The notes: a model not told the origin generated them from the letters alone. Shown: positions 359-50,554, counted from the stretch's first letter. The stretch is 64,000 bases of DNA from Magnetococcales bacterium (GCA_002753515.1 PEAK01000003.1:1-64000); one strand, 5' to 3'. Translations and numbers: made by a program.

Positions 359-552
359 CCATTTCCGCTCCAGATTGCAGTATTCGACGGCAGGTTCTTA
401 ACTGGGAGTCGGGAAAGAGTTGGAAAGTTCCCTGGACTCTCGCGGAATCCTGCCTTTGAATGTTTTATTTGGGGGCAGGGATGACAAAAACTACGAATCC
501 TTCAAGTATAGCTGTGGTTTGGTCCTTAAGGAGGTATCAGGAGGTTACCCTA

Positions 553-12248: not shown

Positions 12249-12252
12249 TTAT

Positions 12253-13461: not shown

Positions 13462-13802
13462 CGCTGCAACCTTCTGATATGAGCGATGATATTTGTAATC
13501 TGGCTTTCGGTATACACCGAACGGAAGGATGGACATGTTGTTCCCCCCTTGCGGATGCGGTCCAACAGCAGCGCATTGCCCTGCATGAGACCATTGGTTG
13601 GGTCGGCTGGACGCGAAAAGTCGGGGGTTCCGGGCATTGTGCCGCGTCCCGTGGCGCCGTGACAACGCCCACAGGATTCCGCGTAAAGTTTTCCCCCTTC
13701 AAACGGGTCAGCAGCTTCCAGGGGGGGAGCCGCGAGCAGGGATAGCAAAAATCCTGTGCCGGTCAGGAGATGCAACACACCCAATCGTTCCATTTTTCTC
13801 AT
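13458..13802 (-). CDS. Small monoheme cytochrome c with an unusual sixth-ligand region
   Basis: The 114-residue protein has a signal peptide ending APPLEA, then one cytochrome c domain: CGRCHGATG near residues 44-52. The C-terminal helix EsQITNIIAHIRRL is typical. Where most class I cytochromes have (A/S)MP-(A/S)-F the sequence reads GTTCPSF, so Met is replaced by Cys at the expected haem-ligand position. The ATG overlaps the upstream stop (ATGA), and the stop overlaps the next start (GTGA): strong translational coupling with a Sel1 protein and two propellers. Confidence 0.85.
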   Translation of the reverse strand: MRKMERLGVLHLLTGTGFLLSLLAAPPLEAADPFEGGKLYAESCGRCHGATGRGTMPGTPDFSRPADPTNGLMQGNALLLDRIRKGGTTCPSFRSVYTESQITNIIAHIRRLQR

Positions 13803-18622: not shown

Positions 18623-19159
18623 ATGTTACGCATTGCTTGGTTGAGTCTGGCTATCATGATAGGTGTCATCGGGCTGGTTCGGCCAGGGATTGCCAAAGAT
18701 CCCAACCATGTTCCCGCTGCCAAGGATGGATATCACGACCCCAGTAACAGATCCCTGGAGTCTCTGCAAAAACCGGCCCAGGCACTCAATGCATTCCCCC
18801 ATGATCGCCTGGGTGAGGTCAATTGGGTGCAAACCCTTGATAAAAACCTGATTGCTCCCCGGGCTGACCTGCTTGGCAAGGCATCCATGAAGGTACTCAA
18901 CCAGGATATTGTCATGACCAACACCAAATCCATGCCCCATGTTCGTTTCCCCCATGCCACCCACACGCGTTGGCTGGATTGCAGCAACTGTCATCCCAAG
19001 CCTTTTCTCCCTGTGGCAAAGGGCAATGCCATTACCATGGACGCTGTTCTACGGGGTCAATTTTGTGGTGCCTGCCATGGTCGGGTTGCCTTCACGCCCT
19101 TCATATGCGAGCGGTGTCACAGTGATGTCCATGCGGGATCGCCTAAAAAGTGGTGGTAG
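18623..19159 (+). CDS. Triheme c7-type cytochrome
   Basis: The 178-residue protein starts after AGGAG and carries a signal peptide ending PGIA. It has three haem motifs near the C-terminus: CSNCH, CGACH and CERCH, with extra histidines in FPHATHTRWLDCSNCHP that can serve as distal ligands. The N-terminal half carries HDPSNRSLESLQ and VNWVQTLDKNLIAPRADL, shared with the cytochromes at 38186-38782 and 39832-40509. The family resembles c7-type triheme domains, small periplasmic electron carriers. It is transcribed away from the kinase-regulator pair and followed by a strong hairpin. Confidence 0.88.
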   Translation: MLRIAWLSLAIMIGVIGLVRPGIAKDPNHVPAAKDGYHDPSNRSLESLQKPAQALNAFPHDRLGEVNWVQTLDKNLIAPRADLLGKASMKVLNQDIVMTNTKSMPHVRFPHATHTRWLDCSNCHPKPFLPVAKGNAITMDAVLRGQFCGACHGRVAFTPFICERCHSDVHAGSPKKWW

Positions 19160-30240: not shown

Positions 30241-32166
30241 TTATTTCTTATCTTTCCCATCGCCATTGGATTGATCTTGATGTTTTTTTATCTCGCTTTC
30301 CCACTCCCAAACAGCCGATCGGGCACGTGGCAACCATGGGTCCGTGTCTGGGCTCATGTGGATAAAACTGCGCATGGCCCCGAGCGCCATCTCTAAATTT
30401 CCTTCTGACTCCAGTGCAATAGCCAATCCATAGTAGGCATTGGTCTGGTAGGGATTCAAGAGCAGGGCTTCCTGAAAAAAATCAAGGGCGGCTCGGACTT
30501 TCCCCACCCCCAGAAGGGCATACCCCATGTTGACCTGAACCTCGGGCATACGGGGATATTCTTGTGAGATGACGTGAAATACGGCTATGGCATCGTTATA
30601 ACGCTTGGCTTGCAGCAATAATGCCCCTTCCAGGAAACGTTGTTGCAAAGAATCTTTGCCCGAGAGGCTGTTGGCGGATGTTTCCGGGGAATTTTCCGCT
30701 GGCAAAGTGGCCCGGGGATTGGTTGAAGGCATTTTTTCCAATAATTGCGCACCAATGGCGATGGTGATTATTGTGATGATCAGCAAGGGAAAGCGATGGT
30801 GGAACAGGCTGGGAAGCCTGGGGGGTCTGCGCATGTTTTTTTGCCCCAACACCGTGAGTGGAACCAGTGAGAAAATGACCACTCCCGCCATGGCTAAACT
30901 GCCGCCTGCTCCCGCTAGCACCATCCCAAGGATGCCGGACAGAGAGGTGGTGGTCAGACCGGGAATCTTGCGTTCTACCCCCTCAATTCCCAGGATTTCC
31001 AGCCCGGTTGCAAGCAGAATGACGCCAATGCCGAACATCCAGGGCTGCCATCGCTGCCAAAGGTGGTTATCAATGGTGACCTGGGATTCAGAAAGCAGGT
31101 GTCGCACAAGCCCCATATATCCCAAAGTGACGGCTCCAACCGCCGCATGATAATGGGCGGTTACCAGCACAGTATCCCCGTCGATCATAATGCCAAATAT
31201 GATCCCTTGGATCAGAAGAATAATAGAAAGGAACACCGATATCAGGATGGAATTGTTTTCTTTGAAAACAGACCTGACGGTTTGCCATCCGGGCCAAAGG
31301 GTCAGTATGGTTCCCGGGACGGGCCACCAAATGGTGTATTCCATCAAATTTGTAAACAATTGTTGATAGTTGCTGCTGGGGATCGGGATGAAAAAAACAG
31401 CAACAAGGCCAGCAATACCTGGAAGGATGGAGATGAGTAATACAATGGAAAGCCAGGGAGAGTACGGGGTGGAATGAAAGGATCGGGTCAGAAACAGCCA
31501 TACACCGAGTAACAATAGAACGTGGGCCAATTGCAATGTATGACCACTGGCCCAGAACAAAGTATTATAATCAGGTGTGGCATCCTGGACCCCGGTAAGG
31601 CGCCAAGTGATCACAAGAAGTGCGATCAGGGCCGTGAACCACGCGAAAGATCCTCCTGTAACATAGGCTTGAATCGGATGGCATCGTAACAGATTCTGCG
31701 GAGTCAACAGGGTGGATATGCCGTGGCTGGCGAGAATGAAGGCACCCAGCCCCAGAAGGACCAACCCGGTAATGAACACGACATTATGCAATACAGGGAT
31801 ATAATTGCTGAGAACGGCCTGTCCCGTGCCTGAGATCCCTGCAATCAACAATGTTATTGTTCCACCCCACGCCAGTGCCAAGGCGATTTGATTGGATAAT
31901 TGTTTGCTGGAGTCGCGAATACGCGTGATCAAGGCTCCGGTCATCGCCAGGAACCAGACTAATACCGCAAAGTTAACGTGATAGACCAATGCCCGGGAAA
32001 ACCCGGTTGTTGTCGTGGCCAGCCAAGGTGAAAACCATGGGATGCGGGAGAGGATCAAATACAAACCGAAGCAGGAGGAGAGGAGCAGGGCGGACAAGCC
32101 CAAACCCAGCCATCCCAATAAGGGGTGGGATGGCATTCCCGAAGCGGATCTGTACGGAGAGTCCAT
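30241..32166 (-). CDS. Divergent haem-copper-oxidase-like membrane protein with TPR tail
   Basis: The 641-residue protein has about 12 membrane helices (residues 15-480) and a periplasmic or cytoplasmic TPR tail (about 515-620, with YNDAIAVFHVISQEYP, ALDFFQEALLLNP and LEMALGAMRSF). The membrane part resembles subunit I of haem-copper oxidases: LVYHVNFAV (like the low-spin haem ligand), FWASGHTLQLAHVLL (like the first CuB His) and TAHYHAAVGAVTLGYMG (like the haem-binding HxH). The expected helix-VII His-His pair is absent; that stretch reads LMEYTIWWPVPG. It may carry haems but lack a standard O2-reducing centre. Its ATG directly follows the stop of ccsA, so it is probably cotranscribed with haem ligation genes. 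Confidence 0.7.
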   Translation of the reverse strand: MDSPYRSASGMPSHPLLGWLGLGLSALLLSSCFGLYLILSRIPWFSPWLATTTTGFSRALVYHVNFAVLVWFLAMTGALITRIRDSSKQLSNQIALALAWGGTITLLIAGISGTGQAVLSNYIPVLHNVVFITGLVLLGLGAFILASHGISTLLTPQNLLRCHPIQAYVTGGSFAWFTALIALLVITWRLTGVQDATPDYNTLFWASGHTLQLAHVLLLLGVWLFLTRSFHSTPYSPWLSIVLLISILPGIAGLVAVFFIPIPSSNYQQLFTNLMEYTIWWPVPGTILTLWPGWQTVRSVFKENNSILISVFLSIILLIQGIIFGIMIDGDTVLVTAHYHAAVGAVTLGYMGLVRHLLSESQVTIDNHLWQRWQPWMFGIGVILLATGLEILGIEGVERKIPGLTTTSLSGILGMVLAGAGGSLAMAGVVIFSLVPLTVLGQKNMRRPPRLPSLFHHRFPLLIITIITIAIGAQLLEKMPSTNPRATLPAENSPETSANSLSGKDSLQQRFLEGALLLQAKRYNDAIAVFHVISQEYPRMPEVQVNMGYALLGVGKVRAALDFFQEALLLNPYQTNAYYGLAIALESEGNLEMALGAMRSFIHMSPDTDPWLPRARSAVWEWESEIKKHQDQSNGDGKDKK

Positions 32167-32982
32167 TTAAACAACACCTTGATGGGGCGCTCTGGAAAGA
32201 AACGGAACTCCAAAGAAAACCAGGAAAGCAAACGTGAAAATGACCCAGATTAACAGGGCACCCACCATGGGAGGGGGACGAAACAACGGTCGCAAATGGA
32301 GATAAAGCGCCAATAGCAACCAGGTGTGCAGCGTCCATGTTTCCAGGGGATCCCAACTCCAATAGCGTCCCCAGGCATCCAGTGACCAGATGGCTCCGGC
32401 GACCAGCATGAGGGAGTGGAAAATAAACCCCAGGGCGGCAAATCGATAGGACAACTCATCCAGACGCGAATTATCCGGCAAGCGTTGGACATGGCGGGCC
32501 AGGGAACCCAGGGAACGCATCACTATGATGCCGCCAATGCCCACAGCTACCAAAATGGCACCCAGGGCTATTTTTCCAAAACCGATATGAACATACAACC
32601 AGATTGTGTCGTAGGTCGGGGGAATGGCGGTGTCTGCGGAACTGCTGACCATCATCCAACCCATGAGTACCAATAATGTCGGCAGCAGGACCACCGAAGT
32701 GGCGCGCAGGGTGGGATAAAACCAGACAAACAGGGTTACCGCCAAAGTCAGGCTCCACAGATTACTGGATAATATTTCAAACATGGATATGAAAGGACCA
32801 TGGCCCAATCTTTGCCAGCGTAGCCCAAGGGACAAACCATGCAGAATCAAACCCATGCTCAAGAGTAATAGCAGGATTCGCTCCCAGCCCCGGTTGAAAA
32901 TAACCACAATGACCGATACCAATCCGGCCAGCAGATAACCCAATATGGCGAGCCATAACAGGCTTTCTTCAGCCATGATCAT
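32167..32982 (-). CDS. ccsA: CcsA-type cytochrome c biogenesis (System II) protein
   Basis: The 271-residue membrane protein has about eight helices and the haem-handling tryptophan-rich motif WGRYWSWDPLETW near residue 205, with flanking conserved His (FIFHSLML before it, TLHTWLL after it). CcsA delivers and ligates haem with ResB/Ccs1 in the periplasm. It begins 15 bases after resB ends and touches the downstream oxidase-like gene. Location inside a cytochrome cluster suggests dedicated maturation of its multihaem proteins. Confidence 0.9.
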   Translation of the reverse strand: MIMAEESLLWLAILGYLLAGLVSVIVVIFNRGWERILLLLLSMGLILHGLSLGLRWQRLGHGPFISMFEILSSNLWSLTLAVTLFVWFYPTLRATSVVLLPTLLVLMGWMMVSSSADTAIPPTYDTIWLYVHIGFGKIALGAILVAVGIGGIIVMRSLGSLARHVQRLPDNSRLDELSYRFAALGFIFHSLMLVAGAIWSLDAWGRYWSWDPLETWTLHTWLLLALYLHLRPLFRPPPMVGALLIWVIFTFAFLVFFGVPFLSRAPHQGVV

Positions 32983-32997
32983 CGCGCCACTCCCATT

Positions 32998-33999
32998 TCA
33001 TTCCACTTTTTTTTCGGATACGGAAACATACTCTGCCCAATGATGGATGGAAAATTGTTTGAAATAATGCCAAGCCAAGCCAAAAATGGCTGCCAGGCTG
33101 GAGGCCAGTAACCAATTCATGGCTGGGTCATAATGGATGCGATATCCCATCCAGGATCGCAGCCCTTCAAACACCAAAACACCTTCGGAAAAACGTACCG
33201 TTGAGCCCTCTTTAAGCACATTGACCGACCCATCACCCGTTTCCAGTTTCAGTCGATAGCGGCGGGGGAGGTGAAGTTGCCAGGATTTTTCTGGATTGGC
33301 CAATTCTTCATCCAACAACAATGTGATTTTGATCCGAATCGCCGTTTGGGGTATGCGCCAATGGCGCACCTGTTCCATGATGGCCGGGTAGCTCGGGAGA
33401 TGCAGGGATGCTCGACTTGGTTGCAAACCATCCGCAGGAATCCATAAAAAGACCGGGGCAAATCCTTTGTTGGCGGTCGTGCGGAGGCGATAGCCCGCCA
33501 GATTCAAGGAAGTTCCATCGCCAATGGTTGCACTCCGGGTCCGTTGCCCCCCTTCCTGCCAGGTCACCTGGTTGCGTGTGATGCCCCGCTTCAATCCAGG
33601 GCCATAGTCCACTGTGAAACCATCCTGACGGAAGCGCATATTTTTCAGATGATCCGCATGCCACATGCCGCGTTCTTCGGACTGGGCGTAGCCGGAAAAA
33701 ATCTCTCCCTGAGTCAGTTCGACGGCCCCCTTGAAACTCGTTAAATAACTGGTAACGGCTGTTCCCAGCACCACCACTAACGCGGTGTGGAATACCAGCA
33801 GACCCGGTTGGGAACGAAACGTGGTATGGCATTGTAATGCTGCGCCAATATTGACAATAAACAATAGCCCGGCCACCGTTAATAAAACAGTATTGGATAG
33901 CATCCCCTGTGCTGACAAGGGCAAGCCACCCAGAAGCAATAGTAGAATTGCCAGAGAAAATTTCAGCGAGGCAAGGCTTGTCGCAAGCTTGGTAACCAT
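32998..33999 (-). CDS. ResB/Ccs1-like cytochrome c biogenesis (System II) protein
   Basis: I use the ATG at 33999, preceded by AGAAGGGG, giving 333 residues. Three N-terminal helices (SLKFSLAILLLLLGG, VLLTVAGLLFIVNIGAAL, GLLVFHTALVVVLGTAV) come first. A periplasmic domain of about 200 residues (VDYGPGLKRGITRN, GYRLRTTANKGFAPVFLW) and a last helix near 300 (NWLLASSLAAIFGLAW) follow. This topology fits the ResB/Ccs1 partner of CcsA. It is shorter than classical ResB (about 450-550 residues). It directly follows the 11-heme cytochrome gene. Confidence 0.8.
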   Translation of the reverse strand: MVTKLATSLASLKFSLAILLLLLGGLPLSAQGMLSNTVLLTVAGLLFIVNIGAALQCHTTFRSQPGLLVFHTALVVVLGTAVTSYLTSFKGAVELTQGEIFSGYAQSEERGMWHADHLKNMRFRQDGFTVDYGPGLKRGITRNQVTWQEGGQRTRSATIGDGTSLNLAGYRLRTTANKGFAPVFLWIPADGLQPSRASLHLPSYPAIMEQVRHWRIPQTAIRIKITLLLDEELANPEKSWQLHLPRRYRLKLETGDGSVNVLKEGSTVRFSEGVLVFEGLRSWMGYRIHYDPAMNWLLASSLAAIFGLAWHYFKQFSIHHWAEYVSVSEKKVE

Positions 34000-34136
34000 G
34001 ATCCCCTTCTGGCAAAAAGCCATGTCAATTGCAAAATCCAAACCTTGGGGGGATTCGCAGAGCAGGAGGCAGGCATAGTGATCAACAAGTGCTACCCATT
34101 GGCAGGAAAGGCACTTTTATTGTTGTGCAAAGCACA

Positions 34137-36710
34137 TTATGGAGCGCTGACACAGTTTTCGGTGCTGTCACGCATCCAATTCCGTCCATTTGTACCGTTT
34201 CCAGGTGCCCCGGATGACCCGCAACTCGCGGCCGTCCACTGACCACTGGCTTGCCATGTTTTAACTTTCAAGACGGAATTCATATAATAGGGGGACCGAC
34301 TATAAGCCGTCGTGGTCCCATTGCGAACCTGGGTACCCGCCGATTTTCCAGCTTCAGGACCCACATCGTTCAAATTGACCAGAAAAGCCTTGTTTTTCCA
34401 GCCATGGGGCACGGCGATATGGCACCAGTCGCAACGTATTTTTCCAAGTTTATCAGCATGATAGCCGTGTAGATTCGTGTCTTTTTCGCAACAGAATCCA
34501 CTCTTATTACCGCCCTTTACTGCATAGTCGTTATAGTTATGACATTTGAAACACAACGCTTCTTGATGACCAGAGCCCATGTTCGTATCCCAGGGGCCCT
34601 TGAGAATAAAATCGCTGGAGGAGCCGTGTGGTCCCCAAGGGCTGCCGGTATTGGGAGTGGTGACACCATTGGCTGTCGTTGAACCATGGCAATCGGTACA
34701 GTAGATGGTTTGGTTGCCGATAAACGTGCCACTGCTGCCATTCCACGGCGAGAGCCACAGGTTGGCGGCTGCACTGCCCCGTTCAGACAATGTGCGCAAT
34801 GTGGGTGCCATGACCGGGTGCCAGGAACGGTGATTGACGGCACTGGGTTCGGTACCACTGGTATTTTTTTCTCCCTGTTCGCTGGCGGGAGCCTGGAATT
34901 CCATGCCTTGATTGGTATACCGATCCCCTGCGGCAAAATTGTTTGTTGACAATCCTTTGGTCCCCGTAATAGCCGGACGACCCGCGTCATTGAAGGCACC
35001 GCCGTCGTTATAGGCGTTATTGGAGTGGCATTTGAGACAAACCTGGTATTCCTTGGTGACAACACCATCCAGAGAACAATCGGTTGGAGTCGTGGGATCA
35101 CCGCACAACATTTTGAAAGAGGTCGGCATGTCGCCAAAATTAGCCCCAACGTAGACAGGTTCAACACCTGTCCCCCCGCGTAAAACACCGGAAGCGGTGT
35201 TGCTGTGCTGTGTTGTAGCGCTGTGGGTATGCGTCGCCTGAGATGATGATCCGCTGCCATTATGGGCGCTGTTTTTCAAAGCCCGGTGCGGGTTGTGACA
35301 ATCGGTACATTCGACGTGGCGATTGTTCAGGTTCCCCTTGCCCAAGAGGAGGGGATCTTCGACAAAATTGGCCCCGGCATGCTGTGGTGCCCCCGACCAG
35401 TTCGACATTAAATCACTGGAAAGCCTGGCACCGATACTGTGAACCTCGGTACCAGCCGGTTGGTCGGTGGAAGTAATGGGCATGTGTTTGTTCCCGACAG
35501 TGGTGAAATCGGTTTTGATATCGGGAACATTGTTGCCCGTGCTGCTGAGGATACTCACAGAACTGGAACTGTGGCATTGATAACAGGTTTCCTCCAGGGC
35601 CGGATTGCCACTTTTCTTCGGTGATGCCGTGCTGTCATTGCCTTCCCGCAATAGACGGCGGGCACCCGGTACCGTATGCGGGTCATGACAGTTGAGACAT
35701 CCCGCTTGCCAAACCGCCGTATTGTCAGCGAACTCACGTTGTGCGGCAGGACTGCCAACGCCCGACTTGTAGGTTTCCGTAGCATCGGTTGGGTTGGCGT
35801 GGACCGATGTTGCCCAGCCGCTGACCCCTTTGTTATGACAAGCCAGACAGACGATATCGTTGAGGTCATTAAACGTGGTACCGCTGGGGGTGGATTTTTG
35901 AAAGCGGTTCAAGCGTAAAAATTTAATGCTGGTGGTCTCGTTGGGATCCCGGATGTGGGGGTCGTGACAAGAGGCACATTGCACTTTCTGTTCATCCAGG
36001 GGGAGAATCGGTTTCGGTGAAACCCCTGTTTGCCGCAAGCCCATGACATATTTGCCATTGGAATTGAACGGGGGCGATCTGAGTTCGCCATCGGCGGTTG
36101 CCAGGGCGGCATTGAACGTGAAGGAAATGGGGTGATCGTTGCTCAGATCCACTCCAAGATTTCTGGTAAAACCGGTATTGGCTCCAGATGCCCCACCAGG
36201 CATGGTGTTCCCGGTACCCAAGCCGGTCATGTTGATGGTGACCGATTGGTTGCCCCCTAAAACACTGACGGCACTGATGGCCATGGTCCCGTCGTGACAG
36301 GACAGGCACAACTTGGAGGTGCCACCGGGACCTTGGCGTAACTCATTGACATCGGCTTCAATGGAGGTCGATTCATAGGTTTTGGTATAGGTGGCACCGG
36401 AGAGCTGCCGGTTCCACAATGGGGCATTAACCCCTGAACTTTGCAAGGAACCATGCGGCGTATGGCAGAAAACACAGACTTGATCTTCGGATGTTGCTTT
36501 GACCGTGCGGGTGGGACCCCCGGGATAGTCTACCGATGAAAGGTTATGGTAGGTGCCGCGGACATCGGATATGCGTGCGGCCATGGAATCACCTGCTGCC
36601 ATGGCAATCAGAAAAACAAAAGCGACAAGGATTCCATCAATGGCCGGACCCCGGACATTAAGATTGAGGGTAATGTGTTTATTCCAAAGTGAAATGACGT
36701 GGAGTCGCAT
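34137..36710 (-). CDS. Undecaheme (11 CxxCH) c-type cytochrome with OmcE-like N-terminal module
   Basis: The 857-residue exported cytochrome starts at an ATG overlapping the NHL stop (TGATG). Eleven haem motifs appear in order: CVFCH, CLSCH, CASCH, CLACH, CLNCH, CYQCH, CTDCH, CLKCH, CTDCH, CFKCH and CDWCH. The first four lie in a module with TYHNLSS, CVFCHTPHG, APLWNR, CLSCHDG, LGVDLSNDHPISF, CASCHDPH, FLRLNRF and CLACHNKG. These match the order seen in the 4-heme protein at 44571-45401 and, from memory, Geobacter OmcE. Seven further haems follow. It is likely secreted or outer-membrane associated and would receive electrons from the porin conduit. No lipobox is seen. It is followed by System II maturation genes. 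Confidence 0.9.
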   Translation of the reverse strand: MRLHVISLWNKHITLNLNVRGPAIDGILVAFVFLIAMAAGDSMAARISDVRGTYHNLSSVDYPGGPTRTVKATSEDQVCVFCHTPHGSLQSSGVNAPLWNRQLSGATYTKTYESTSIEADVNELRQGPGGTSKLCLSCHDGTMAISAVSVLGGNQSVTINMTGLGTGNTMPGGASGANTGFTRNLGVDLSNDHPISFTFNAALATADGELRSPPFNSNGKYVMGLRQTGVSPKPILPLDEQKVQCASCHDPHIRDPNETTSIKFLRLNRFQKSTPSGTTFNDLNDIVCLACHNKGVSGWATSVHANPTDATETYKSGVGSPAAQREFADNTAVWQAGCLNCHDPHTVPGARRLLREGNDSTASPKKSGNPALEETCYQCHSSSSVSILSSTGNNVPDIKTDFTTVGNKHMPITSTDQPAGTEVHSIGARLSSDLMSNWSGAPQHAGANFVEDPLLLGKGNLNNRHVECTDCHNPHRALKNSAHNGSGSSSQATHTHSATTQHSNTASGVLRGGTGVEPVYVGANFGDMPTSFKMLCGDPTTPTDCSLDGVVTKEYQVCLKCHSNNAYNDGGAFNDAGRPAITGTKGLSTNNFAAGDRYTNQGMEFQAPASEQGEKNTSGTEPSAVNHRSWHPVMAPTLRTLSERGSAAANLWLSPWNGSSGTFIGNQTIYCTDCHGSTTANGVTTPNTGSPWGPHGSSSDFILKGPWDTNMGSGHQEALCFKCHNYNDYAVKGGNKSGFCCEKDTNLHGYHADKLGKIRCDWCHIAVPHGWKNKAFLVNLNDVGPEAGKSAGTQVRNGTTTAYSRSPYYMNSVLKVKTWQASGQWTAASCGSSGAPGNGTNGRNWMRDSTENCVSAP

Positions 36711-37804
36711 CAGCCGTCCCCTCCCAAAAACTGGAACACGACAACCCGGCCATTAAACATGTCGGCGACAAAAACGCGTCCCGCTGCATCGGTCCAGACA
36801 CCGCTGGGCAGGTAAAACTGACCTTTTTCAGAACCTGTACCACCAATGGGTAGCAGGAAGTTGCCGCCGCGATCAAAAACCAGCAGGTGATCGTGGAAGG
36901 ATTCGATCACATAGACATTGCCTTCCTCGTCGACAGCGACACCCTTGGGTCGAGTCAGATTGCCAACGAAATTTCCGCGTTTGCCAATGGTGGCGATATG
37001 CGAGCCGGCAGGATCCAGAACCTGCACCTGCGCATTGAGTGTATCCGCCACGTAAAGGCGATTTTTTGCAAAGGTCATTTGCGTTGGGGCATTGAACAGC
37101 GGCTCCTCGGCTGAATTGCCGGCAATGACATGGACCAGTTTACCGCTGGCATCAAACATTTTGATATTATCTTCCCAGGCATCGGAGACGTATAAAATCT
37201 CCTTTGCCGGATCAAACGCCAATCCCACAGGACGTTTCAATTGACCGCGTCCAATTTCCGCGAGAGGTAACCCGCGGCCGTCAAGGCGTGTCACGATGGC
37301 TAGTTCGGAGTCAACGACAAAGATATCATTATTGGCTCCTACGACAATACCGGCGGGGGCTGAAAAGTAGCTGTTCGCGGTTGCCTTGCGCCAAATGGCG
37401 ATCTCGCCTTTGAAAGGATCGAAAACAAAGATCGCTTTTTCGCCCATGTCGGTGACATAGATAACCCCTTTTCGGTCCACTGTGCCGCTGACGGGGCGCG
37501 CCAGATTATGATTTAAACTTTTAGGGAGTCCCGAATCCGGGTCGAGTCCGACCAGCCAGCGAACGGCCCCTTTGGCGGTACGAAAGCTATCATCTCCGGC
37601 AAGCCGAAAATTGTTGGCGCCGAAAATTTCTCCGACAAATTCATAACGCGGGGTTTGCGGGAGGGATGGCCAAACTAGTCTTTGGTTGGCTTTCATCCGT
37701 TCCGTACCCAAAGTCATCTCGTGTTTGGTGGCGACACAGGCAAGCAAAATGACCGGCAATGAAAGCAGCAAGGAGGCGAATGCAACCTTACGCGTGCGGT
37801 TCAT
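36710..37804 (-). CDS. NHL-repeat beta-propeller lipoprotein
   Basis: The 364-residue protein has a lipoprotein signal with lipobox ILLAC (Cys23), then about six NHL blades: ARPVSGTVDRKGVIYVTD, APAGIVVGANNDIFVVD, RPVGLAFDPAKEILYVSD, APTQMTFAKNRLYVADT, RPKGVAVDEEGNVYVIES and LPSGVWTDAAGRVFVADM. It overlaps both neighbours by one base (TAATG before, TGATG after), so it is translated together with a triheme and the 11-heme cytochrome. NHL proteins recur near extracellular cytochromes; here it could scaffold or position the 11-heme protein on the cell surface. Confidence 0.88.
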   Translation of the reverse strand: MNRTRKVAFASLLLSLPVILLACVATKHEMTLGTERMKANQRLVWPSLPQTPRYEFVGEIFGANNFRLAGDDSFRTAKGAVRWLVGLDPDSGLPKSLNHNLARPVSGTVDRKGVIYVTDMGEKAIFVFDPFKGEIAIWRKATANSYFSAPAGIVVGANNDIFVVDSELAIVTRLDGRGLPLAEIGRGQLKRPVGLAFDPAKEILYVSDAWEDNIKMFDASGKLVHVIAGNSAEEPLFNAPTQMTFAKNRLYVADTLNAQVQVLDPAGSHIATIGKRGNFVGNLTRPKGVAVDEEGNVYVIESFHDHLLVFDRGGNFLLPIGGTGSEKGQFYLPSGVWTDAAGRVFVADMFNGRVVVFQFLGGDG

Positions 37805-38178
37805 TAATAGTCTCCGGGTCCACCTGCTTTGTTGTCACCACGAATTCCCGTTTTCAAGCCGGGAAGTCCTGAATGGCACCGGTGGCAATGCTCCAACCCC
37901 CATGCCGTCTCATCATTATGACACATGCCACAAAATTTTCCATCCAGAATTGCGGCCATGGTGATGTCATTGCTGCCGACCTTCATCTGGAAACCCAGCT
38001 CATGGTGACACACCTTGCAACGAAAGCGTATCCGGTGAAACCAATGGGGATAGATGACCGGCCTGACCCCTTCCGCTTCCGCGTGGCGGTTCAGTACGAC
38101 ATCCGCATACTCTGCCAGCACGGGGGAAGCTGACAGGAGAACGATGATGGCAACCACGAACAGGGCCAGCGGGGTCAT
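37804..38178 (-). CDS. Small triheme cytochrome, family B
   Basis: The 124-residue protein (ATG 38178; TTG 38199 possible) has a signal peptide (LALFVVAIIVLLSASPVLA) and motifs CKVCH, CGMCH and CHRCH. It shares EYADVVLN, PHWFHRIRFRCKVCH, GSNDITMAAILDGKFCG and CHSGLPG with the protein at 40524-40973, so they are paralogues. Histidines in PHWFHR can ligate haem. Size and spacing fit c7-type periplasmic carriers. Confidence 0.87.
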   Translation of the reverse strand: MTPLALFVVAIIVLLSASPVLAEYADVVLNRHAEAEGVRPVIYPHWFHRIRFRCKVCHHELGFQMKVGSNDITMAAILDGKFCGMCHNDETAWGLEHCHRCHSGLPGLKTGIRGDNKAGGPGDY

Positions 38179-38185
38179 GGTTCGA

Positions 38186-38782
38186 TTAGTGTTTTTCAAC
38201 GGGTTGAACACCAAACTTACCTCGAAAGGTATCGGGTTTGACACTATGGCAGCGTGCGCATTCTGTCAGTGGGAAGGCGACGGCACCATGACATTTTCCG
38301 CAAAACTTGCCCTCCAGAATGGCCCCCATTTTGATGCCGGAGGTGCCAAATTTTTCTTTGAAAGGGTCCGGATGACAATTGGCACAGTCCAGCCATTCCG
38401 TGTGTGCCCTATGGGGAAATCGCACATAGGCATTATCACCCGTGTTACCAAGAATGAGATCCATGTCCAAAATTTTAATTGTGGTATCAGGCACGATATT
38501 GGTACGTGGGGTGATTATCCCATCGCGCAGTGCTTGTACCCAACGTACCTTGTTACCAACCGAATCGACCGGAAAGCCGGCAAAGGCGGCATCGGGCCTC
38601 TGCAACTCGTTGAAGGATGGGCCTTGCGGATCATGCAGACCGTCATTGGCGAACACATCCTTGGCATTGGCAGCAGGCACGAAACAGCATACGCTGCCTG
38701 CGATCCACAGCAGCACGAAGAGCAGGAGCTTGTTCTCAACCCACTGCGTTTTCTTCGACCTGATAGCCATGTTTCTCATCAT
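38186..38782 (-). CDS. Triheme cytochrome, family A
   Basis: The 198-residue protein has a signal peptide (LLLFVLLWIAGSVCCFVPAANA) and CANCH, CGKCH and CARCH. Shared features with 18623-19159 and 39832-40509 are HDPQGPSFNELQ, RWVQALRDGIITPRTN, RFPHRAHTEWLDCANCHPDPF and GKFCGKCHGAVAFP. The ATG overlaps the stop of the preceding helical-protein gene (ATGA). It probably moves electrons across the periplasm. Confidence 0.88.
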   Translation of the reverse strand: MMRNMAIRSKKTQWVENKLLLFVLLWIAGSVCCFVPAANAKDVFANDGLHDPQGPSFNELQRPDAAFAGFPVDSVGNKVRWVQALRDGIITPRTNIVPDTTIKILDMDLILGNTGDNAYVRFPHRAHTEWLDCANCHPDPFKEKFGTSGIKMGAILEGKFCGKCHGAVAFPLTECARCHSVKPDTFRGKFGVQPVEKH

Positions 38783-39732
38783 CCGGGAATATAGATTCCA
38801 GAGCCACGAATTGCCTTGATAAGCTCCATTGTGGAATCCTCCAATGTTTTAATGGCTTCAGCGAACTTGCCCGCAGCCCCTTGTTGATCGGCTTGGCGCC
38901 TGAGTTCAGCGGCCTGGGTGATAAATTTGGAAATCATGGGATCGGGTTTGCCGCCATCCTTGTTGAGCAGCATGCCAATGAGCATCTGGTGTGTATCGTT
39001 ACGATCCAGCTCATAACGATATTCTTCTTCTTTGGTTGCAAAATTAAGGGAACGCACCAGGGTGTCGCCACGTCGCAAATGCTCAATACCAACCTTGGCG
39101 GTTACATAGGCCTTGTCGAGGATGACGCGACCTTTTTCAACCTCTCCCTTGCTCGACAGCGCCCGCGCTTCCGAGGTCATCTGGTGGACTTGCTCGCTGA
39201 TTTTGGCGGAGTCCCCACCCGCTTTTTTCTCCTTGCGAATCCGATCCAAGGCATCCGTAAGGGCTTCGACGCTTTTCATGCGCCGGTCGAAGTCTTGGAC
39301 ATTTTTTGATGCATGGGTAGCACCACCATCGGCTTTGCGCACAGCTTCAAATACCAATGATGTTCCTTCACCCATCCGATCCGAGGCGCCTTTCAAATCA
39401 CCGCTGTTCAACAATCCACGCGCCTGATCCCTTTTGCCCCGCGCTTGTTCCAGCAAAGCAATGGCTTCGGCATTGCCGCTGGCCGCAACTTTTTTGGCAC
39501 CGGAGGATTTTTCAACCAGGGTATCCAGTGTTACCAAGCGTCGCTGCACCTGCTCTTTATCGGATCCCCAACGGGATTTCAAATTAGGGGACCCGACCTC
39601 ACCCGCTGCTTGAGATTGGGTAGCCTTCGGTGAATCATTGGCCTCATCCGTCCCCCCCAGGGCGTGCGTTCCATACGAAGCCAAAAGAATCGCCATCATG
39701 CTGGAACCAAGCAAGCGCAACGGACTTTTCAT
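38779..39732 (-). CDS. Exported helical protein of unknown function in the cytochrome cluster
   Basis: The 317-residue protein has a signal peptide (LRLLGSSMMAILLASYGTHALG) and is almost entirely predicted helix rich in Ala, Lys, Glu and Arg, with helical-hairpin patterns such as EQARGKRDQARGLLNSGDLKGA and DRRMKSVEALTDALDRIRKE. The repeat-like 'L..G....A...' segments suggest a TPR- or four-helix-like periplasmic scaffold. I do not recognise a family. No Cys is visible, so it binds no covalent haem. It is flanked by two family A cytochromes and overlaps the next gene by four bases, so it is surely part of the system. Confidence 0.8.
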   Translation of the reverse strand: MKSPLRLLGSSMMAILLASYGTHALGGTDEANDSPKATQSQAAGEVGSPNLKSRWGSDKEQVQRRLVTLDTLVEKSSGAKKVAASGNAEAIALLEQARGKRDQARGLLNSGDLKGASDRMGEGTSLVFEAVRKADGGATHASKNVQDFDRRMKSVEALTDALDRIRKEKKAGGDSAKISEQVHQMTSEARALSSKGEVEKGRVILDKAYVTAKVGIEHLRRGDTLVRSLNFATKEEEYRYELDRNDTHQMLIGMLLNKDGGKPDPMISKFITQAAELRRQADQQGAAGKFAEAIKTLEDSTMELIKAIRGSGIYIPG

Positions 39733-39831
39733 CGGGAAACCTCCTTATCATAAGTGGTGGGTCATACACCTGAACGACCCATTCTTGCCATTAATCCTTT
39801 ACATTGCCCAATCGAACTACCCGGCCAAGCA

Positions 39832-40509
39832 TTATTTGGGTTTCGCTGCGGGGGTCTTTGGCTTGGAATGACACAGGCGACATTCGCTCACTGGAAAAGC
39901 GACCTTGCCATGACATACACCACACTTCTGTCCCATGAGGATTTGCGCCATGGATATGGCATTTTTGCCCTTCTCGGGAATAAAGATATCAGGATGACAG
40001 TTGGAGCAATCCAGCCATGCCGTATGCCGGTCGTGGGGGTAGACCACGTCTGGCATGGACCCCTTGACTTCCCGAACGATATCCAGATCCAGGATCAAGG
40101 CTTCCGCATTGGGATCCTGGCGATCATAACGGGGATTGATCGCGTTGGATTTGAGTGTTTGCACCCAGTTGATATAGTTACCCGCATTACTGTTCGTAAA
40201 GTTAGTGAAGGCTTCCTTGGGGGGCTGCAATTGCGGGGTACCCGGGTTATCGGGATCGTGAATGCCGTCCGCTGCCTGGGCGGGATTGCGCTCAGATTTC
40301 GGTTTCATCAGACGGTTGAAGGTATTCGCCCCCGCCGCCTTTGGGGGAGCCGCAGCTTTTTCGGGTGCCGCCGCTGGTGCATCCTTGGGTTGAGGGGTCT
40401 CAGCCGCTTTGCCAGCCGGCTGTGCCGCATGGATTTGTGAGGGGCTTGCGATAAACAATGCTGCAAGGAAAATCACAGCGAACAAAAAGGGAATCGTCAC
40501 GGTCCTCAT
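39832..40509 (-). CDS. Triheme cytochrome, family A, with Ala/Pro-rich linker
   Basis: I start at ATG 40509, after AAAGGAA; 225 residues. A signal peptide is followed by a Pro/Ala/Lys linker (residues about 30-60), then the family A domain: HDPDNPGTPQLQ, INWVQTLKSNAINPRYD, YPHDRHTAWLDCSNCHPDIF, CGVCHGKVAFP and CRLCHS. Linker and tail (TPAAKPK) are longer than in the other two members. A longer upstream extension overlaps the next cytochrome gene and is rejected. Confidence 0.87.
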   Translation of the reverse strand: MRTVTIPFLFAVIFLAALFIASPSQIHAAQPAGKAAETPQPKDAPAAAPEKAAAPPKAAGANTFNRLMKPKSERNPAQAADGIHDPDNPGTPQLQPPKEAFTNFTNSNAGNYINWVQTLKSNAINPRYDRQDPNAEALILDLDIVREVKGSMPDVVYPHDRHTAWLDCSNCHPDIFIPEKGKNAISMAQILMGQKCGVCHGKVAFPVSECRLCHSKPKTPAAKPK

Positions 40510-40523
40510 GATTACGGTTCCTT

Positions 40524-40973
40524 TCACTTGGCCGGTTGCGAAGGTTTGAGCAGTTTTTGCACGGTACTGCCATGGACCTGCGTTGGGGTACCTGGTTTGC
40601 CGGAGTGGCAAAAATCGCAGTTGTCCACGGACCAGGCGATTTCCCCATTATGGCAAGCACCACAGAACTCGCCGTTGATAATTTTCAACATATTGATTTC
40701 GTTGCCACCCGCTTGAAATTTGAATCCCAGGTCGGCATGGCAAACCTTGCACCGGAAACGGATACGGTGAAACCAATGCGGGAAAATGGCCGGTCGCATC
40801 CCTGCGCCATCAGAATAATTATTGATGACAATATCGGCATACTCGGCCCGGGCCGGCGAACTGCCCATGATGGCGAGAGCCACCAGTGCCGGTATCGCAA
40901 CGCAAACAATCAGCCTGAAAACTATCGTTTTCATTTCAGGCCTTGCCAAGCCCATTTTCTTATTGCGCTTCAT
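40524..40973 (-). CDS. Small triheme cytochrome, family B
   Basis: The 149-residue protein starts after GGGAGG, two bases from the porin gene stop. A signal peptide (IPALVALAIMGSSPARA) precedes EYADIVINNY, PHWFHRIRFRCKVCH, CGACH and CDFCH. It is a paralogue of 37804-38178. It is the first cytochrome after the outer-membrane barrel and a good candidate for the periplasmic electron donor to the conduit. Confidence 0.87.
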   Translation of the reverse strand: MKRNKKMGLARPEMKTIVFRLIVCVAIPALVALAIMGSSPARAEYADIVINNYSDGAGMRPAIFPHWFHRIRFRCKVCHADLGFKFQAGGNEINMLKIINGEFCGACHNGEIAWSVDNCDFCHSGKPGTPTQVHGSTVQKLLKPSQPAK

Positions 40974-40975
40974 GA

Positions 40976-43021
40976 TTAAAACCTCCCTTGGTATTCACGC
41001 GTTGCCTCCAAAGTAACCAGTCCGAGAGTGCTTGTTATGCCTTTATCGTCTGCTAAGATACTGATTTCACCGCCCAGTCGTATAGTCAGTTTCCCAATGT
41101 GGTAGTATAGCAGATCCTGTAATCGCCATTCATGCCGAACGGGTTCAACGGACCCCATGGATACTACACTGGAAGTCATAGTCATTGACAGCTCATTGCG
41201 CAGATCTTCCACACCAAAAATCCCCAGGTTGGATACCGAGGCATTGGCACCAGCAGATTGGGCTATAGTTGCGTCCCCTTTATTATCATTCATGCGCGTC
41301 CAGTTCAACGTGATATGACCCTGCCATTGCCCATTATCGCTCTTTAATCCACTCCTGGAGAACTGGAGATTGGCCATCTGGTTATCCCTGGCCTCCGGGG
41401 CTAAAGCGCGCGTATCGGTGATACGCAGGTCTATATACGTTGGTATTTTATCCGAGCCGCTTTCGTAGCCTATTCCTATGCCATGTGTCAAGTCCGTACC
41501 CAACTGGGACTCCGGTAATTTTTCATTCACGCCTACGGATTCGTCCAACGACAAACGATAGGCTCCTTCCTTGCCTTCTTTATCATTTTCAAATCTGCGA
41601 CGCAGGCCATGTCCCAATCGTTCCTGTATGTTTTGGACTGGTTTTTTCATATCGGTCGCACTGTTGGCCAAGCTGGTGTTGGAGTACCAACGATGTTCAA
41701 ACGATGACCATTGCGATGAAGAAGAATCGTACTGATGGGACAATACTTGGGATGTACTGCCAATAGTGCTTTTCGCATCTGGTTGAGATGTTTGTTGTTC
41801 GACGATATCGTAATTTCCGGTCACGAAACCGGTCAGGCTGTTATGTTCATCGAATTGGTACATTGTTCCCAGCCGGGTATTGGCAGCGCGGCGCTGGCGA
41901 TTCATGCCAAACGCCCCGCTATCCATGCGAAGTTGGTATTTTTCTTCATCCTGGCTCAGTCGCAACGCCCCTGAGAAGGAGAGGGGATTTTCCAAGGAGC
42001 GCCAGAACAGGTCCGTACCTACCTGCTGTTGGTCATCAGCGGAGTGTTCTTGAAACGTTCCAGCAATTGTGTTAGCGGGATCCCTTGTTAAATAGACATT
42101 ATTAAATGATCCAACGGTAGCCAGGTTGTTGATGCTAAAATTTTCTTTTGGATTATAACCATGTGTCATGGTAATGCCACGATCACGACTGTTTGTGGAA
42201 TTCAAAGCTGTTTTCCGAACATTGCTGACACTGCGAACCGTCATGCCAAGGGTGTTTTGCGTAAATCGCTTGTCGAGACGCAAGCTGACCATATCGCTGA
42301 CATTTGTCCCTTCATCTCCGGTCAGGCCGGGCATTAAAAGTGTCTGCAATCTGGGACTGGAACGTTCACCCATATTATCGTTCCGATGTTCAGCTTGCAC
42401 GTTGGCACTGAAATCGTTGTCCTCATTCCTGTATTCCTGTTTCAATCCAAATTTTTGGGATGCCCGGGCAGATCCGTGCCCAGAGGTACCCCCTTCTGAG
42501 TTTGAACCGTTCATGCGGTTGAAATACAAGCTTGATGGAAAACGGCTTTGAGGGAAAAGTCCTAATTCGACGTTGGTTTGAAAATCAATGGCACTGACTT
42601 CTGTGAGTCCTTCGTCATTGGTGGTACCGTGAGATAGCGTCTTACTCATGGTTAGTCCTGCGTTAAAGTCCGATCGCCAACGTGAGATATAGGGTTCAAC
42701 GAAATATCCTACGCCACTGCGACTGACCTGGGTTCGATTGAACAGCACATGACCACCACTTATCGAGTTCACGGCTTTGTCGTCATAAAGCGTTTGGCTC
42801 CGTACACCGATGCCGCCAAATACGTTCCATGGACTCATTTGCAAATGGGGGCTGACAGTTTCAAACATGTCTGAAACTTCTGACATCTCTACCCCGTAAC
42901 CACGTTCTGCCGAAAAAGTGCATACCACAACAATCAGAAGTGATCCCCAAAGACCGACCCCACGGCTCCAGCCCGGGAAACAATGACCTAATGCGGATTC
43001 CCAGGTCAGAAACAGGATCAT
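40976..43021 (-). CDS. Outer-membrane beta-barrel protein (candidate porin of a cytochrome conduit)
   Basis: The 681-residue protein has an N-terminal hydrophobic signal (GLWGSLLIVVVCTFSA), no CxxCH, and long runs of alternating polar and hydrophobic residues with many Tyr, Ser, Asn and Thr (for example GVGYFVEPYISRWRSDFNAGLTMSKT). It ends in Phe (EATREYQGRF), the classic signature recognised by the barrel assembly machine. Its size suits a 20-28-strand barrel as in MtrB/OmbB-type conduits, where the barrel wraps a multihaem cytochrome. The next gene begins two bases away and encodes a triheme cytochrome. There is no N-terminal CxxC motif of MtrB type that I can see. Function is inferred from context. 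Confidence 0.75.
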   Translation of the reverse strand: MILFLTWESALGHCFPGWSRGVGLWGSLLIVVVCTFSAERGYGVEMSEVSDMFETVSPHLQMSPWNVFGGIGVRSQTLYDDKAVNSISGGHVLFNRTQVSRSGVGYFVEPYISRWRSDFNAGLTMSKTLSHGTTNDEGLTEVSAIDFQTNVELGLFPQSRFPSSLYFNRMNGSNSEGGTSGHGSARASQKFGLKQEYRNEDNDFSANVQAEHRNDNMGERSSPRLQTLLMPGLTGDEGTNVSDMVSLRLDKRFTQNTLGMTVRSVSNVRKTALNSTNSRDRGITMTHGYNPKENFSINNLATVGSFNNVYLTRDPANTIAGTFQEHSADDQQQVGTDLFWRSLENPLSFSGALRLSQDEEKYQLRMDSGAFGMNRQRRAANTRLGTMYQFDEHNSLTGFVTGNYDIVEQQTSQPDAKSTIGSTSQVLSHQYDSSSSQWSSFEHRWYSNTSLANSATDMKKPVQNIQERLGHGLRRRFENDKEGKEGAYRLSLDESVGVNEKLPESQLGTDLTHGIGIGYESGSDKIPTYIDLRITDTRALAPEARDNQMANLQFSRSGLKSDNGQWQGHITLNWTRMNDNKGDATIAQSAGANASVSNLGIFGVEDLRNELSMTMTSSVVSMGSVEPVRHEWRLQDLLYYHIGKLTIRLGGEISILADDKGITSTLGLVTLEATREYQGRF

Positions 43022-43377
43022 CCATTACCACCTTATTGAACCCTACGGTCTTAATGTATTCTATGCGACATTAATGTAGGTATGTTTGTGGTAGTCTCCC
43101 GGGTGGTGTGTATTCCACGCCCAGAAGAGCCAAGACCATCTCACTCCATTCAGCCATCAGGGTACAATAAGTTACCATCCCCACCATTCGCATCATTGAT
43201 GGGAAACGTTCAATGTGCGATCAAGATTATAGAGAGTAAGAACGGTATTACGACCCAAGACAGTACTACCTGTTTCAGGATATATTCGGCTGAAAAGTGT
43301 CTGGTACAATAGGCCCCGTGGGCAAAAAAATCAAGGTCAAAACCAAAAAGTTGATGGATCCTTTCTCTTCGCGATCC
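43022..43377. other. Intergenic region upstream of the porin gene
   Basis: I see no gene. It contains the conserved promoter-like module copy B (43303-43344) and the AAGGTGG ribosome binding site of the porin gene. It probably holds the main promoter of the porin-cytochrome operon. Confidence 0.55.
43303..43344 (-). promoter_or_regulatory. Conserved promoter-like module, copy B
   Basis: On the minus strand GGTTTTGACCTTGATTTTT is followed by GGGGCCTATTGTACC. TTGATT and TATTGT are separated by 17 bases, as in a sigma-70-type promoter. It is nearly the same as copy C at 50513-50554. The predicted direction is toward the porin gene, about 280 bases downstream. Confidence 0.45.
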
Positions 43378-44466
43378 TTATTTAGGCAATGGCTTATAAT
43401 AATCCTCATTAATGCGGATAGTGGTATTTTTACGTAACTTAGCCTTCAGTTCTGTAAGGGCATTATCCGATTTTTGGCGTTGGAGAAGTCCTGTTGCCCG
43501 TTCCCTGGCGTCCTCAAATGATACTTTTCTCGGGGGGGTACGTTTGTCCAGTTTGAAGATGGCATATCCCTCCAAAACCATGATGGGATTGGTGACCTCG
43601 CCGGGCTTGATTTTGGCCAGGGCTTCTTCCGCCTCGGTTGCCATCGTCCCCTTGTGGAGGCTATCCATTTTGCCACCGTTTTCTGCCGAGGCATCTCCCG
43701 AGTGGATACGGGCCAACTCGGGAAATGCTGCTCCCCCCTTCAATTTTTCCATAATGGTATTGGCTTCCTGGGATGCTTTCTCCCAGGCTTCCGAACCAGC
43801 GGAAGGATCTACTTTCAGAAGAATCAGCGATACTTCAATTTCTTCCGGTTTGGTAAATTTGTCGGGGTTGGCATTGTAAAAAGCCTTCACTTCATTGACG
43901 GAAGGGGGATCAACCTTGCGGACCTGCGCTTGCAACTGGTCAACAAGGCTACGATCCTCGATTTCGCCGATCAATGGAGCGATCATCACTTCCCGATTGG
44001 CTTTGTAACGTTCCGAGTCTCCATACCTTTTATCATACTCGGAAATGGTCTTTTGCACCAACTCCTGGTTTGGTTTCAATCCCCGTTTCTTGGCCTCCTG
44101 GACCAAAAGAACCCGATCAACGAGCATGTTGCCAATTTCACGCTGAAACTTGGCAACTTCAGCCTCCGGCGGTGCTCCGTGATAAAATTTTTGCCGCACC
44201 CCCATACTGACAGCTTGGTTGAAGGCTTCGGCGGAAATGGTCACCGAGCCGATAACGGCAAAAGGAGGCTTGGTTGAAGGTTCCGGCATCTTGCCAGGAG
44301 GCATTACAGCAGCGGGAGGCGTTGCAGCGGCAGGAGATGGTGCAATAGCTGGAGGCGTTGCAGTGGCCGATGTTGCCGCAACACCTTTTTGTTCAGCATT
44401 TGCATTAACTGGACATACCACTCCTGCAATCCCGAGGAAAAGGGATGCCACCAAAAGAACTCTCAT
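43378..44466 (-). CDS. Periplasmic parvulin-type (PpiC) peptidyl-prolyl isomerase
   Basis: The 362-residue protein has a signal peptide and an Ala/Pro-rich linker (residues about 25-65), then a SurA-like helical N-domain (about 70-190). The parvulin domain (about 205-315) has VSLILLKVDPSAGSE, FPELARIHSGDASAENGGKMDSLHKG and KPGEVTNPIMVLEGYAIFKLDKR. Such chaperones assist folding of exported proteins at proline bonds. It lies 104 bases after the tetraheme cytochrome gene and ahead of the porin, so its clients are probably the secreted cytochromes or the barrel. Confidence 0.88.
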   Translation of the reverse strand: MRVLLVASLFLGIAGVVCPVNANAEQKGVAATSATATPPAIAPSPAAATPPAAVMPPGKMPEPSTKPPFAVIGSVTISAEAFNQAVSMGVRQKFYHGAPPEAEVAKFQREIGNMLVDRVLLVQEAKKRGLKPNQELVQKTISEYDKRYGDSERYKANREVMIAPLIGEIEDRSLVDQLQAQVRKVDPPSVNEVKAFYNANPDKFTKPEEIEVSLILLKVDPSAGSEAWEKASQEANTIMEKLKGGAAFPELARIHSGDASAENGGKMDSLHKGTMATEAEEALAKIKPGEVTNPIMVLEGYAIFKLDKRTPPRKVSFEDARERATGLLQRQKSDNALTELKAKLRKNTTIRINEDYYKPLPK

Positions 44467-44570
44467 TATGTACTTTCCGGGAGGTTAAGTTGCGCTGGAC
44501 GTAACCTTAACTTGAAAAGGGCTTGTGCCCCCGAAGCACCGTAAACCGAATGGGCTTCGGGGGCAATGGC

Positions 44571-45401
44571 TTACTTATCGTGGCAGGCCAGGCAAACGGC
44601 GCTTCCCGTATTGCTGATACGCAGGAAGGAAACCGAAGTTGCGCTGGCGGTACTGGCATTGTGGGGATCGTGACAGCTTGCACATTCGACAAACGGCTGA
44701 ACCACACCGCTCAGGGTACGGGTATACAGCACCATATCGGTTTTATCGCGAACGTTGGTCGTACCCACTGAGGTGTCGATCCACCAAGCTGGATTGCTGT
44801 TGATGGTACTCTTGACACCTGCTTTGAAGCTACCATCTTTCAGAGTTGTCGCAGCCGCCGCACCGTCACCATCTGTGGATTTCCAACCGCCACCACCGTA
44901 TTGGATGCTGATGGGGTGATCGTTGGAAAGGTCAGCTCCCAGTTTTGGGAAGCCGGTCATCGAAACACCGCCGGCGAAATTGGCACCTGCAGCATTGTAG
45001 CCATCGGAGCCGGGGGCATTGATCATAACGTCCATGGCTTGGCTTCCGTCATGGCAGGAGAGACATGCCAAGGAGACGGAACCGACTGGGGCTTCACTGC
45101 CGTCCAAGGTTGTGGTGTTCAAGGACGAATAGCGGGTGTAGGAGGCTGTGGAGAGGCTCTTGTTCCACAGAGGCACTGGAGCTGACGTATTGGATCCATG
45201 CGGGGTATGACAGAAGACGCAAACCTCTGTCGTGGATGCTGTGGCACCCAATTGTGAAGTACCGCCGCTCCCCAAGTCGTGCTTGGAACCTTTGATACCG
45301 GCTTGAACCAACCCAACTGAAGCCAGTTGAATCGATACGACCGCCATGCCAGCAACCATTGAAAGCACAACCCCTTTGCGTGATAGGCTAGGCATCTTCA
45401 T
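44571..45401 (-). CDS. OmcE-like tetraheme c-type cytochrome (nanowire-type candidate)
   Basis: The 276-residue protein has an ATG after AGGGGA and a signal peptide ending GLVQA. The mature part starts GIKGSKHDLG and has four haem motifs: CVFCH, CLSCH, CASCH and CLACH, the last six residues from the end. The order KHDL, CVFCHTPHG, PLWN, CLSCHDG, LGADLSNDHPISIQY, CASCHDPHN, SFLRI and CLACHDK matches my memory of Geobacter OmcE, which polymerises into extracellular tetraheme filaments. Homology is recalled, not computed. It heads a block with a PPIase and a porin-cytochrome operon. An enlarged relative is the 11-heme protein at 34137-36710. Confidence 0.88.
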   Translation of the reverse strand: MKMPSLSRKGVVLSMVAGMAVVSIQLASVGLVQAGIKGSKHDLGSGGTSQLGATASTTEVCVFCHTPHGSNTSAPVPLWNKSLSTASYTRYSSLNTTTLDGSEAPVGSVSLACLSCHDGSQAMDVMINAPGSDGYNAAGANFAGGVSMTGFPKLGADLSNDHPISIQYGGGGWKSTDGDGAAAATTLKDGSFKAGVKSTINSNPAWWIDTSVGTTNVRDKTDMVLYTRTLSGVVQPFVECASCHDPHNASTASATSVSFLRISNTGSAVCLACHDK

Positions 45402-45722
45402 AAATAATCCCCTGTCTCAAAAACTCTAAGATTTGTGGTTATCGGTGCAACTCGAACCGTCCTGGTAGGACATAAGCAGAATTGGTGCCAATCGTTCCAT
45501 ATAAATTAAAATATTGTGATATCAATATATTGTCTTTGCAAATGATACCGTGGGATTGAGGTGCTGCCTCGATAGCCAAGCGATTCCCAGGAAAATCCAT
45601 GGGGACAAATTCCAGAATATTGGAAAATCGGGGTCACGACTCTCTTGAATATGAGAAAATTGTTAATAATTAGCTTCTTATATTAGATCATCCACGGTTT
45701 GATTTTTCAATCCCGCCATAAG

Positions 45723-50477: not shown

Positions 50478-50512
50478 AGAAAAGACCTGGTTGCACTTCG
50501 TTATGGGACTTT

Positions 50513-50554
50513 GGACAATAGGCCCTTTGGAGACAAAAATCAAAGTCAAAAACT
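50513..50554 (-). promoter_or_regulatory. Conserved promoter-like module, copy C
   Basis: On the minus strand AGTTTTTGACTTTGATTTTT is followed by AAGGGCCTATTGTCC. TTGATT and TATTGT are 17 bases apart. The chosen start of the HD-GYP gene lies 36 bases downstream. Confidence 0.5.

Follow-up and report, generated by a model that had tools for sequence, protein, structure and literature searches.

An OmcE-family cytochrome within a probable Uet-type electron transfer locus of a Magnetococcales bacterium

Genes of the cytochrome block

A 64,000-nucleotide stretch of a Magnetococcales genome (GCA_002753515.1, PEAK01000003.1:1-64000; hereafter the window) contains a block of cytochrome genes at positions 30241 to 45401. 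The host is a magnetotactic member of the Magnetococcales with a genome of 4.33 Mb in 134 contigs, in which MamA was detected above the cut-off on contig 93. The closest named GTDB loci come from metagenome-assembled genomes of Magnetococcales, and an origin in Nitrospirota, considered at first, was rejected on these grounds. The original prediction had read the block as a candidate extracellular electron transfer locus in which a porin-cytochrome conduit is combined with a cytochrome of nanowire type, a reading well supported by the synteny, co-occurrence, barrel model and OmcE homology described below. None of the outcomes that the prediction had named as counting against it was obtained. 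The block is very likely an extracellular electron transfer locus and one of a known kind, probably the Magnetococcales version of Uet (undecaheme electron transfer), a trans-envelope electron conduit.

Thirteen genes, all on the minus strand, run from 45401 to 30241, and every gene claimed for the block was found there in the family stated. Family scans returned Paired_CXXCH/OmcE-like, Rotamase, TIGR04257 (four times), NHL, a protein with 11 CxxCH motifs, ResB, CcsA, and COX1 together with TPR. The six cytochromes hold 27 CxxCH motifs, compared with 0.08 expected from residue shuffles. The first gene, uetA (44571..45401), encodes an exported OmcE-family tetraheme cytochrome with four CxxCH motifs and invariant histidines that matches PDB 7tfs. 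It is followed by uetB (43378..44466), encoding a SurA/PpiC-type periplasmic prolyl isomerase (Rotamase, 4e-18), and by uetC (40976..43021), whose 681-residue product is a predicted outer membrane beta-barrel. Next come two triheme c7-type cytochromes matching TIGR04257, uetD (T1; 40524..40973) and uetE (T2; 39832..40509), and then uetF (38779..39732), an exported helical protein assigned by its homologues and by its position, which in Tenderia is occupied by Tel_16525, a TPR protein (PMC5371394). Two more trihemes matching TIGR04257 follow, uetG (T3; 38186..38782) and an additional one, T4 (37804..38178), and then an NHL beta-propeller lipoprotein corresponding to uetH/I (36710..37804; NHL, 2e-19) with Cys23 conserved among homologues, and uetJ (34137..36710), an undecaheme cytochrome with 11 CxxCH motifs. 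The last three genes encode a CcsB-type ResB (32998..34041), a CcsA-type heme handling protein with a WWD motif and two conserved histidines, H132 and H229 (32167..32982), and a heme-copper-oxidase-like membrane domain fused to a TPR domain (30241..32166; COX1, 2e-11).

Two of the starts were revised. For T2, the long TTG start at 40611 is probably wrong, the ATG at 40509 behind an AAAGGA box being a better fit, and for T4 the ATG at 38178 is more likely than the start at 38244. With these corrections the larger overlaps at both genes disappear. The many overlaps of 1 to 4 bases that had been reported are genuine at only three junctions (uetF/T3, -4; T4/NHL, -1; NHL/uetJ, -1), and gaps of 104, 356 and 95 bases separate uetA from uetB, uetB from uetC and uetJ from resB.

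UetC had no Pfam or NCBIfam match. Its AlphaFold2 model is a confident all-beta barrel (mean predicted local distance difference test score [pLDDT], 87.5) with approximately 28 long strands by a count of the strand list, and the best solved Foldseek match by E value was MtrB (6r2q_B, 2e-8). The barrel evolves fast, averaging 23% identity to the window protein outside the order among homologues that are still detectable, while T1, the most conserved component, is nearly frozen at a mean of 72%. The four trihemes form two classes of two copies each, T1/T4 (57/116 residues identical) and T2/T3 (67/151 identical).

Conservation, promoter and relation to known systems

Allowing for contig ends, the whole set was collinear in 17 relatives, the synteny that the original prediction had proposed looking for. 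UetA was present in 19 of 48 Magnetococcales genomes, and all 18 genomes bearing the barrel also had UetA and UetJ; barrel, UetA and UetJ were all absent from G018, the sole single-contig genome among the 48. When GTDB was scanned with the T1 alignment, 284 relatives were obtained, of which 80 were kept. These came from Rhodocyclales and other Betaproteobacteria, Gammaproteobacteria, Gallionella, Magnetococcales and one Nitrospirae metagenome-assembled genome (MAG). The gene order of the block was kept in most of them, and the barrel gene neighbors those of the cytochromes in three classes. The Magnetococcales formed one clade in a UetJ tree.

The genes uetABCDEFGHIJ have been published for Tenderiales and Gallionella (PMC10734462, PMC12575090), with UetA described as a tetraheme cytochrome, UetB as a prolyl isomerase, UetC as a porin, UetDEG as trihemes, UetHI as NHL proteins and UetJ as an undecaheme cytochrome (PMC10734462). 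Uet has also been recorded in Leptothrix (PMC13386937). In Tenderia the trihemes Tel_16515, Tel_16520 and Tel_16530, which are highly expressed on a cathode, lie on either side of Tel_16525, a TPR gene, and Tel_16545 is the undecaheme cytochrome (PMC5371394). The order found here (tetraheme, prolyl isomerase, barrel, triheme, triheme, helical protein, triheme, NHL protein, undecaheme) is that of UetA, B, C, D, E, F, G, H/I and J. UetA, the isomerase and the barrel precede the trihemes, as in Uet, and the trihemes enclose the helical/TPR protein and are followed by the NHL protein, with one extra triheme in the block. Because both gene order and family descriptions match, we identify the block as Uet, and a Gallionella locus among the GTDB loci (L149) is homologous to it. 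The earlier statement that the combination corresponds to no known cluster was thus mistaken (PMC10734462, PMC12575090, PMC5371394). The block does differ in having four trihemes and one NHL protein, whereas many gammaproteobacterial loci have three and two, respectively, and in continuing into the ResB-CcsA-oxidase-like/TPR genes.

Other conduits resemble the block in part. The Mtr, Mto and Pio systems share with the block a large barrel and multiheme cytochromes, MtrB being the nearest solved fold to UetC, but gene calls and family scans found no MtrA-type decaheme cytochrome gene in the block, which instead has separate trihemes and an undecaheme protein as well as a barrel unrecognizable by sequence. 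With OmbB-OmaB-OmcB, PCC3 and PCC4 it shares the general porin-cytochrome logic, but those systems use other cytochromes and inner membrane partners and lack an OmcE-type subunit.

A sigma-54-type promoter, TGGCACcaattcTGCT (TGGCAC-N6-TGC), lies on the minus strand at 45475..45490, 89 bp before the uetA start. When 57 uetA upstream regions were scanned with a hand-weighted consensus and a score cut-off, a site was found at 24 of them, compared with 5 of 100 other long non-Uet open reading frames (p about 2e-8); the comparison with regions before other Uet genes gave p about 2e-19. Across the whole window the plain sigma-54 pattern showed no excess (33 versus 41 expected); the test specific to the position before uetA is the only informative one. 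Neither sigma-70 promoters nor terminators rose above chance level. A sigma-54 switch probably controls the block.

The maturation genes appear to belong to the same unit. ResB occurs in the host genome as a single copy, in the block, and since it is found nowhere else the maturation looks dedicated, in agreement with the System II assignment made originally. Other Cytochrom_C_asm proteins were present on contigs 47, 134, 62 and 94 and are, by their length, probably of the CcmF/CcmC type. In the GTDB loci extending far enough downstream of UetJ, BLAST detected ResB in 36 of 53 and CcsA in 21 of 31, and all 26 genomes checked had a TPR protein homologous to the last gene product. In Magnetococcales and several betaproteobacteria the TPR domain is part of one protein with the oxidase-like domain, and in gammaproteobacteria it stands free behind a single membrane anchor; by analogy with CcmI and NrfG it may be an apocytochrome chaperone. 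In common with System II (CcsBA) synthases, the set has ResB and a CcsA with the WWD motif and conserved histidines, but unlike them it coexists with other Cytochrom_C_asm copies and ends in the TPR domain, oxidase-fused in the lineages just named.

The last gene product has an oxidase-like fold, as had been predicted, but not the makeup of a usual oxidase. H63, H209, H338 and H340 (the latter two an AHYH pair) are invariant, and the ligand alignment assigned H63, H338 and H340 as heme ligands and H209 as the one CuB histidine present. The helix-VII HH pair, two of the three CuB histidines, is absent from this alignment, making a standard oxidase unlikely, and the domain had no match among PDB sequences. 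It may be a b-heme electron entry or exit point.

In Aromatoleum and Motiliproteus, UetJ had appeared to be missing, but this was rejected when UetJ was found elsewhere in those genomes. Uet is split in Aromatoleum/Azoarcus (L083, L084, L087, L089 and L094), with barrel, trihemes and ResB-CcsA-oxidase-like genes together and UetJ apart; in Aromatoleum tolulyticum, UetJ lies approximately 30 kb from the other Uet genes on the same contig. The Nitrospirae MAG contig (L142) carries a syntenic Uet block, suggesting inter-phylum transfer or mis-binning. Close to two Uet-type trihemes, a gammaproteobacterial MAG (L140) encodes a 1534-residue protein that has 30 CxxCH motifs and is UetJ-like over part of its length.

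OmcE likeness and the possible route of electrons

UetA aligned over its full length, including all four hemes, with OmcE of Geobacter (PDB 7tfs; E value of 9e-30), and likewise with PDB 9yuq (1e-27), a recent 16-chain deposit that is OmcE/UetA-like and titled "putative multiheme cytochrome c." H41, H65, H68, H117, H162, H244, H247 and H274 were invariant in 60 of 60 UetA sequences, and all eight are common to OmcE. They include the second histidine of CxxCHTPH, the residue which we take to be the inter-subunit ligand of OmcS and OmcE. UetJ in turn aligned through residues 1 to 294 with UetA (33% identity over 323 columns; E value of 2e-33) and also matched 7tfs (1e-20), with its heme motifs conserved in a 54-member alignment, and its N terminus thus identifies it as a UetA-like tetraheme domain with seven further hemes. 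The Geobacter filament and UetA therefore have in common full-length homology and an identical pattern of heme and distal histidines, but UetA shares its operon with an outer membrane barrel and an 11-heme protein bearing a UetA-like domain, and a filament form has been observed for OmcE, whereas UetA is known here from genes.

Whether UetA forms a filament can be argued both ways. In one account the conduit is the same but no filament forms. UetA and UetJ would be its terminal cytochromes, either soluble or membrane bound, and the resemblance to OmcE would go back only to shared ancestry of the tetraheme fold; we rate this just short of an even chance. UetJ is no small repeating subunit and yet retains the same histidines, so that histidines alone do not require polymerization, and a tetraheme paralogue located farther upstream, mainly in betaproteobacteria, persists although H68, the CHTPH histidine, is mostly lost. 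Against this, the exact OmcE set of eight histidines, CHTPH included, is kept in every UetA, and OmcE-type filaments depend on a histidine donated to the neighboring subunit (PMC9473688, PMC12954529). The other account is a built-in nanowire, in which UetA would polymerize like OmcE and UetJ, through its UetA-like N terminus, would be the base that docks the filament on the barrel. We put this forward tentatively, as a possibility with the balance of chances somewhat against it.

With either arrangement, the block, judging from its predicted proteins, most likely serves to exchange electrons between the envelope and the cell exterior. The periplasmic trihemes (UetD, UetE, UetG and T4) would shuttle electrons between the inner membrane and UetC, the roughly 28-stranded barrel serving as the outer membrane passage, and UetJ with its 11 hemes and the OmcE-family tetraheme UetA would form the outer-surface part, UetA possibly polymerizing via the CxxCHTPH histidine as in OmcE. 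UetB would assist folding, the NHL lipoprotein would anchor or scaffold, and ResB/CcsA with the TPR domain would attach heme as a dedicated System II. Transcription would be driven by the sigma-54 promoter, probably served by a kinase/regulator pair at 14.8 to 18.6 kb.

As to direction, we lean modestly toward electron uptake. The reverse, an outward respiratory path reducing metal oxides or another extracellular acceptor, is appreciably possible if somewhat below even: OmcE serves outward transfer in Geobacter, and the relatives include Rhodocyclales, among them Dechloromonas and Aromatoleum. Undecaheme cytochromes have been reported in a Mn-reducing Dechloromonas (PMC13264449). However, published Uet hosts oxidize cathodes or Fe(II) (PMC5371394, PMC10734462), and dsrA is present in the host genome, which may be compatible with lithotrophic sulfur oxidation. 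RuBisCO had no match in the host genome.

Several points weigh against the reading of the block as a sigma-54-controlled Uet conduit in which UetA possibly polymerizes. The assignment to Uet was made from order and family descriptions, Tenderia being matched by description only, and the OmcE-like sequence of UetA is no proof of polymerization. The structure model of UetJ was poor (pLDDT, 60.5) and unfit for a fold search; UetC had a template modeling score of only 0.36 to MtrB; and 33 of the 57 uetA upstream regions fell below the sigma-54 cut-off of a consensus that was weighted by hand. Foldseek with UetC also returned many TonB receptors (E values of about 1e-6 to 1e-7), as would suit a barrel that is a TonB-type or other transporter with the cytochromes as unrelated neighbors, but UetC has no plug domain, about 28 rather than 22 strands and MtrB as its best match, and its adjacency to and co-occurrence with the cytochromes make this very improbable.

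Compared with the Uet descriptions considered, the present analysis places UetA in the OmcE family and recognizes a UetA-like domain in UetJ. It also adds a sigma-54 link, an apparently dedicated maturation module and the occurrence in magnetotactic Magnetococcales. It is an open question how cytochrome nanowires are attached to the outer membrane, and here an OmcE-family protein shares one conserved operon with a likely barrel, carriers, a larger cytochrome with the same domain and maturation factors. Should UetA form a filament on a UetJ base, hundreds of Proteobacteria, magnetotactic ones included, would carry a sigma-54-controlled, genetically linked conduit and nanowire. Since close Uet relatives occur in cultured strains (Aromatoleum, Dechloromonas and Sedimenticola), nanowire attachment is testable. 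The presence of Uet in a magnetite-forming bacterium also raises the question of whether magnetotaxis goes together with extracellular iron redox chemistry, of which no report was found in the literature searched.

Candidate regulators and the wider neighborhood

The functional neighborhood reaches past the block, to 460-4775 and 10848-19159. In most other genomes, homologues (mostly 47 to 61% identity) of a plus-strand NHL protein (460..2190) immediately precede uetA. Two further plus-strand genes (2519..3655 and 3726..4775) encode cytochromes, each with three CxxCH motifs, whose homologues are divergent upstream of NHL-uetA elsewhere. A minus-strand region encoding two Reg_prop beta-propellers (10848..13665) has counterparts adjoining uetA in other Magnetococcales and in Motiliproteus/Thalassotalea. 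The candidate regulators, also on the minus strand, are a sigma-54 response regulator (14770-16152) and a PAS histidine kinase (16145-18574), a pair that may control the uet operon. A fifth triheme (TIGR04257, 61 bits), which falls in the T2/T3 class, is located on the plus strand at 18623..19159. This triheme and the two candidate regulators likewise have homologues that are neighbors of uetA in other genomes. In contrast to other Uet loci, the usual upstream trio and the regulator module are thus 12 to 45 kb away in this genome, on the same contig.

Genes for cyclic di-GMP turnover (GGDEF, EAL and HD-GYP) surround the Uet block at 8888-10657, 19558-23872 and 47841-52480 of the window. A paired-CXXCH cytochrome with seven CxxCH motifs (54773-55594) has an ethylbenzene-dehydrogenase-like (heme b) protein in its vicinity (52571-53773). 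The window encodes a similar EB_dh protein at 23873-24943, and one of the GTDB loci (L043) has an EB_dh homologue near its own Uet block.

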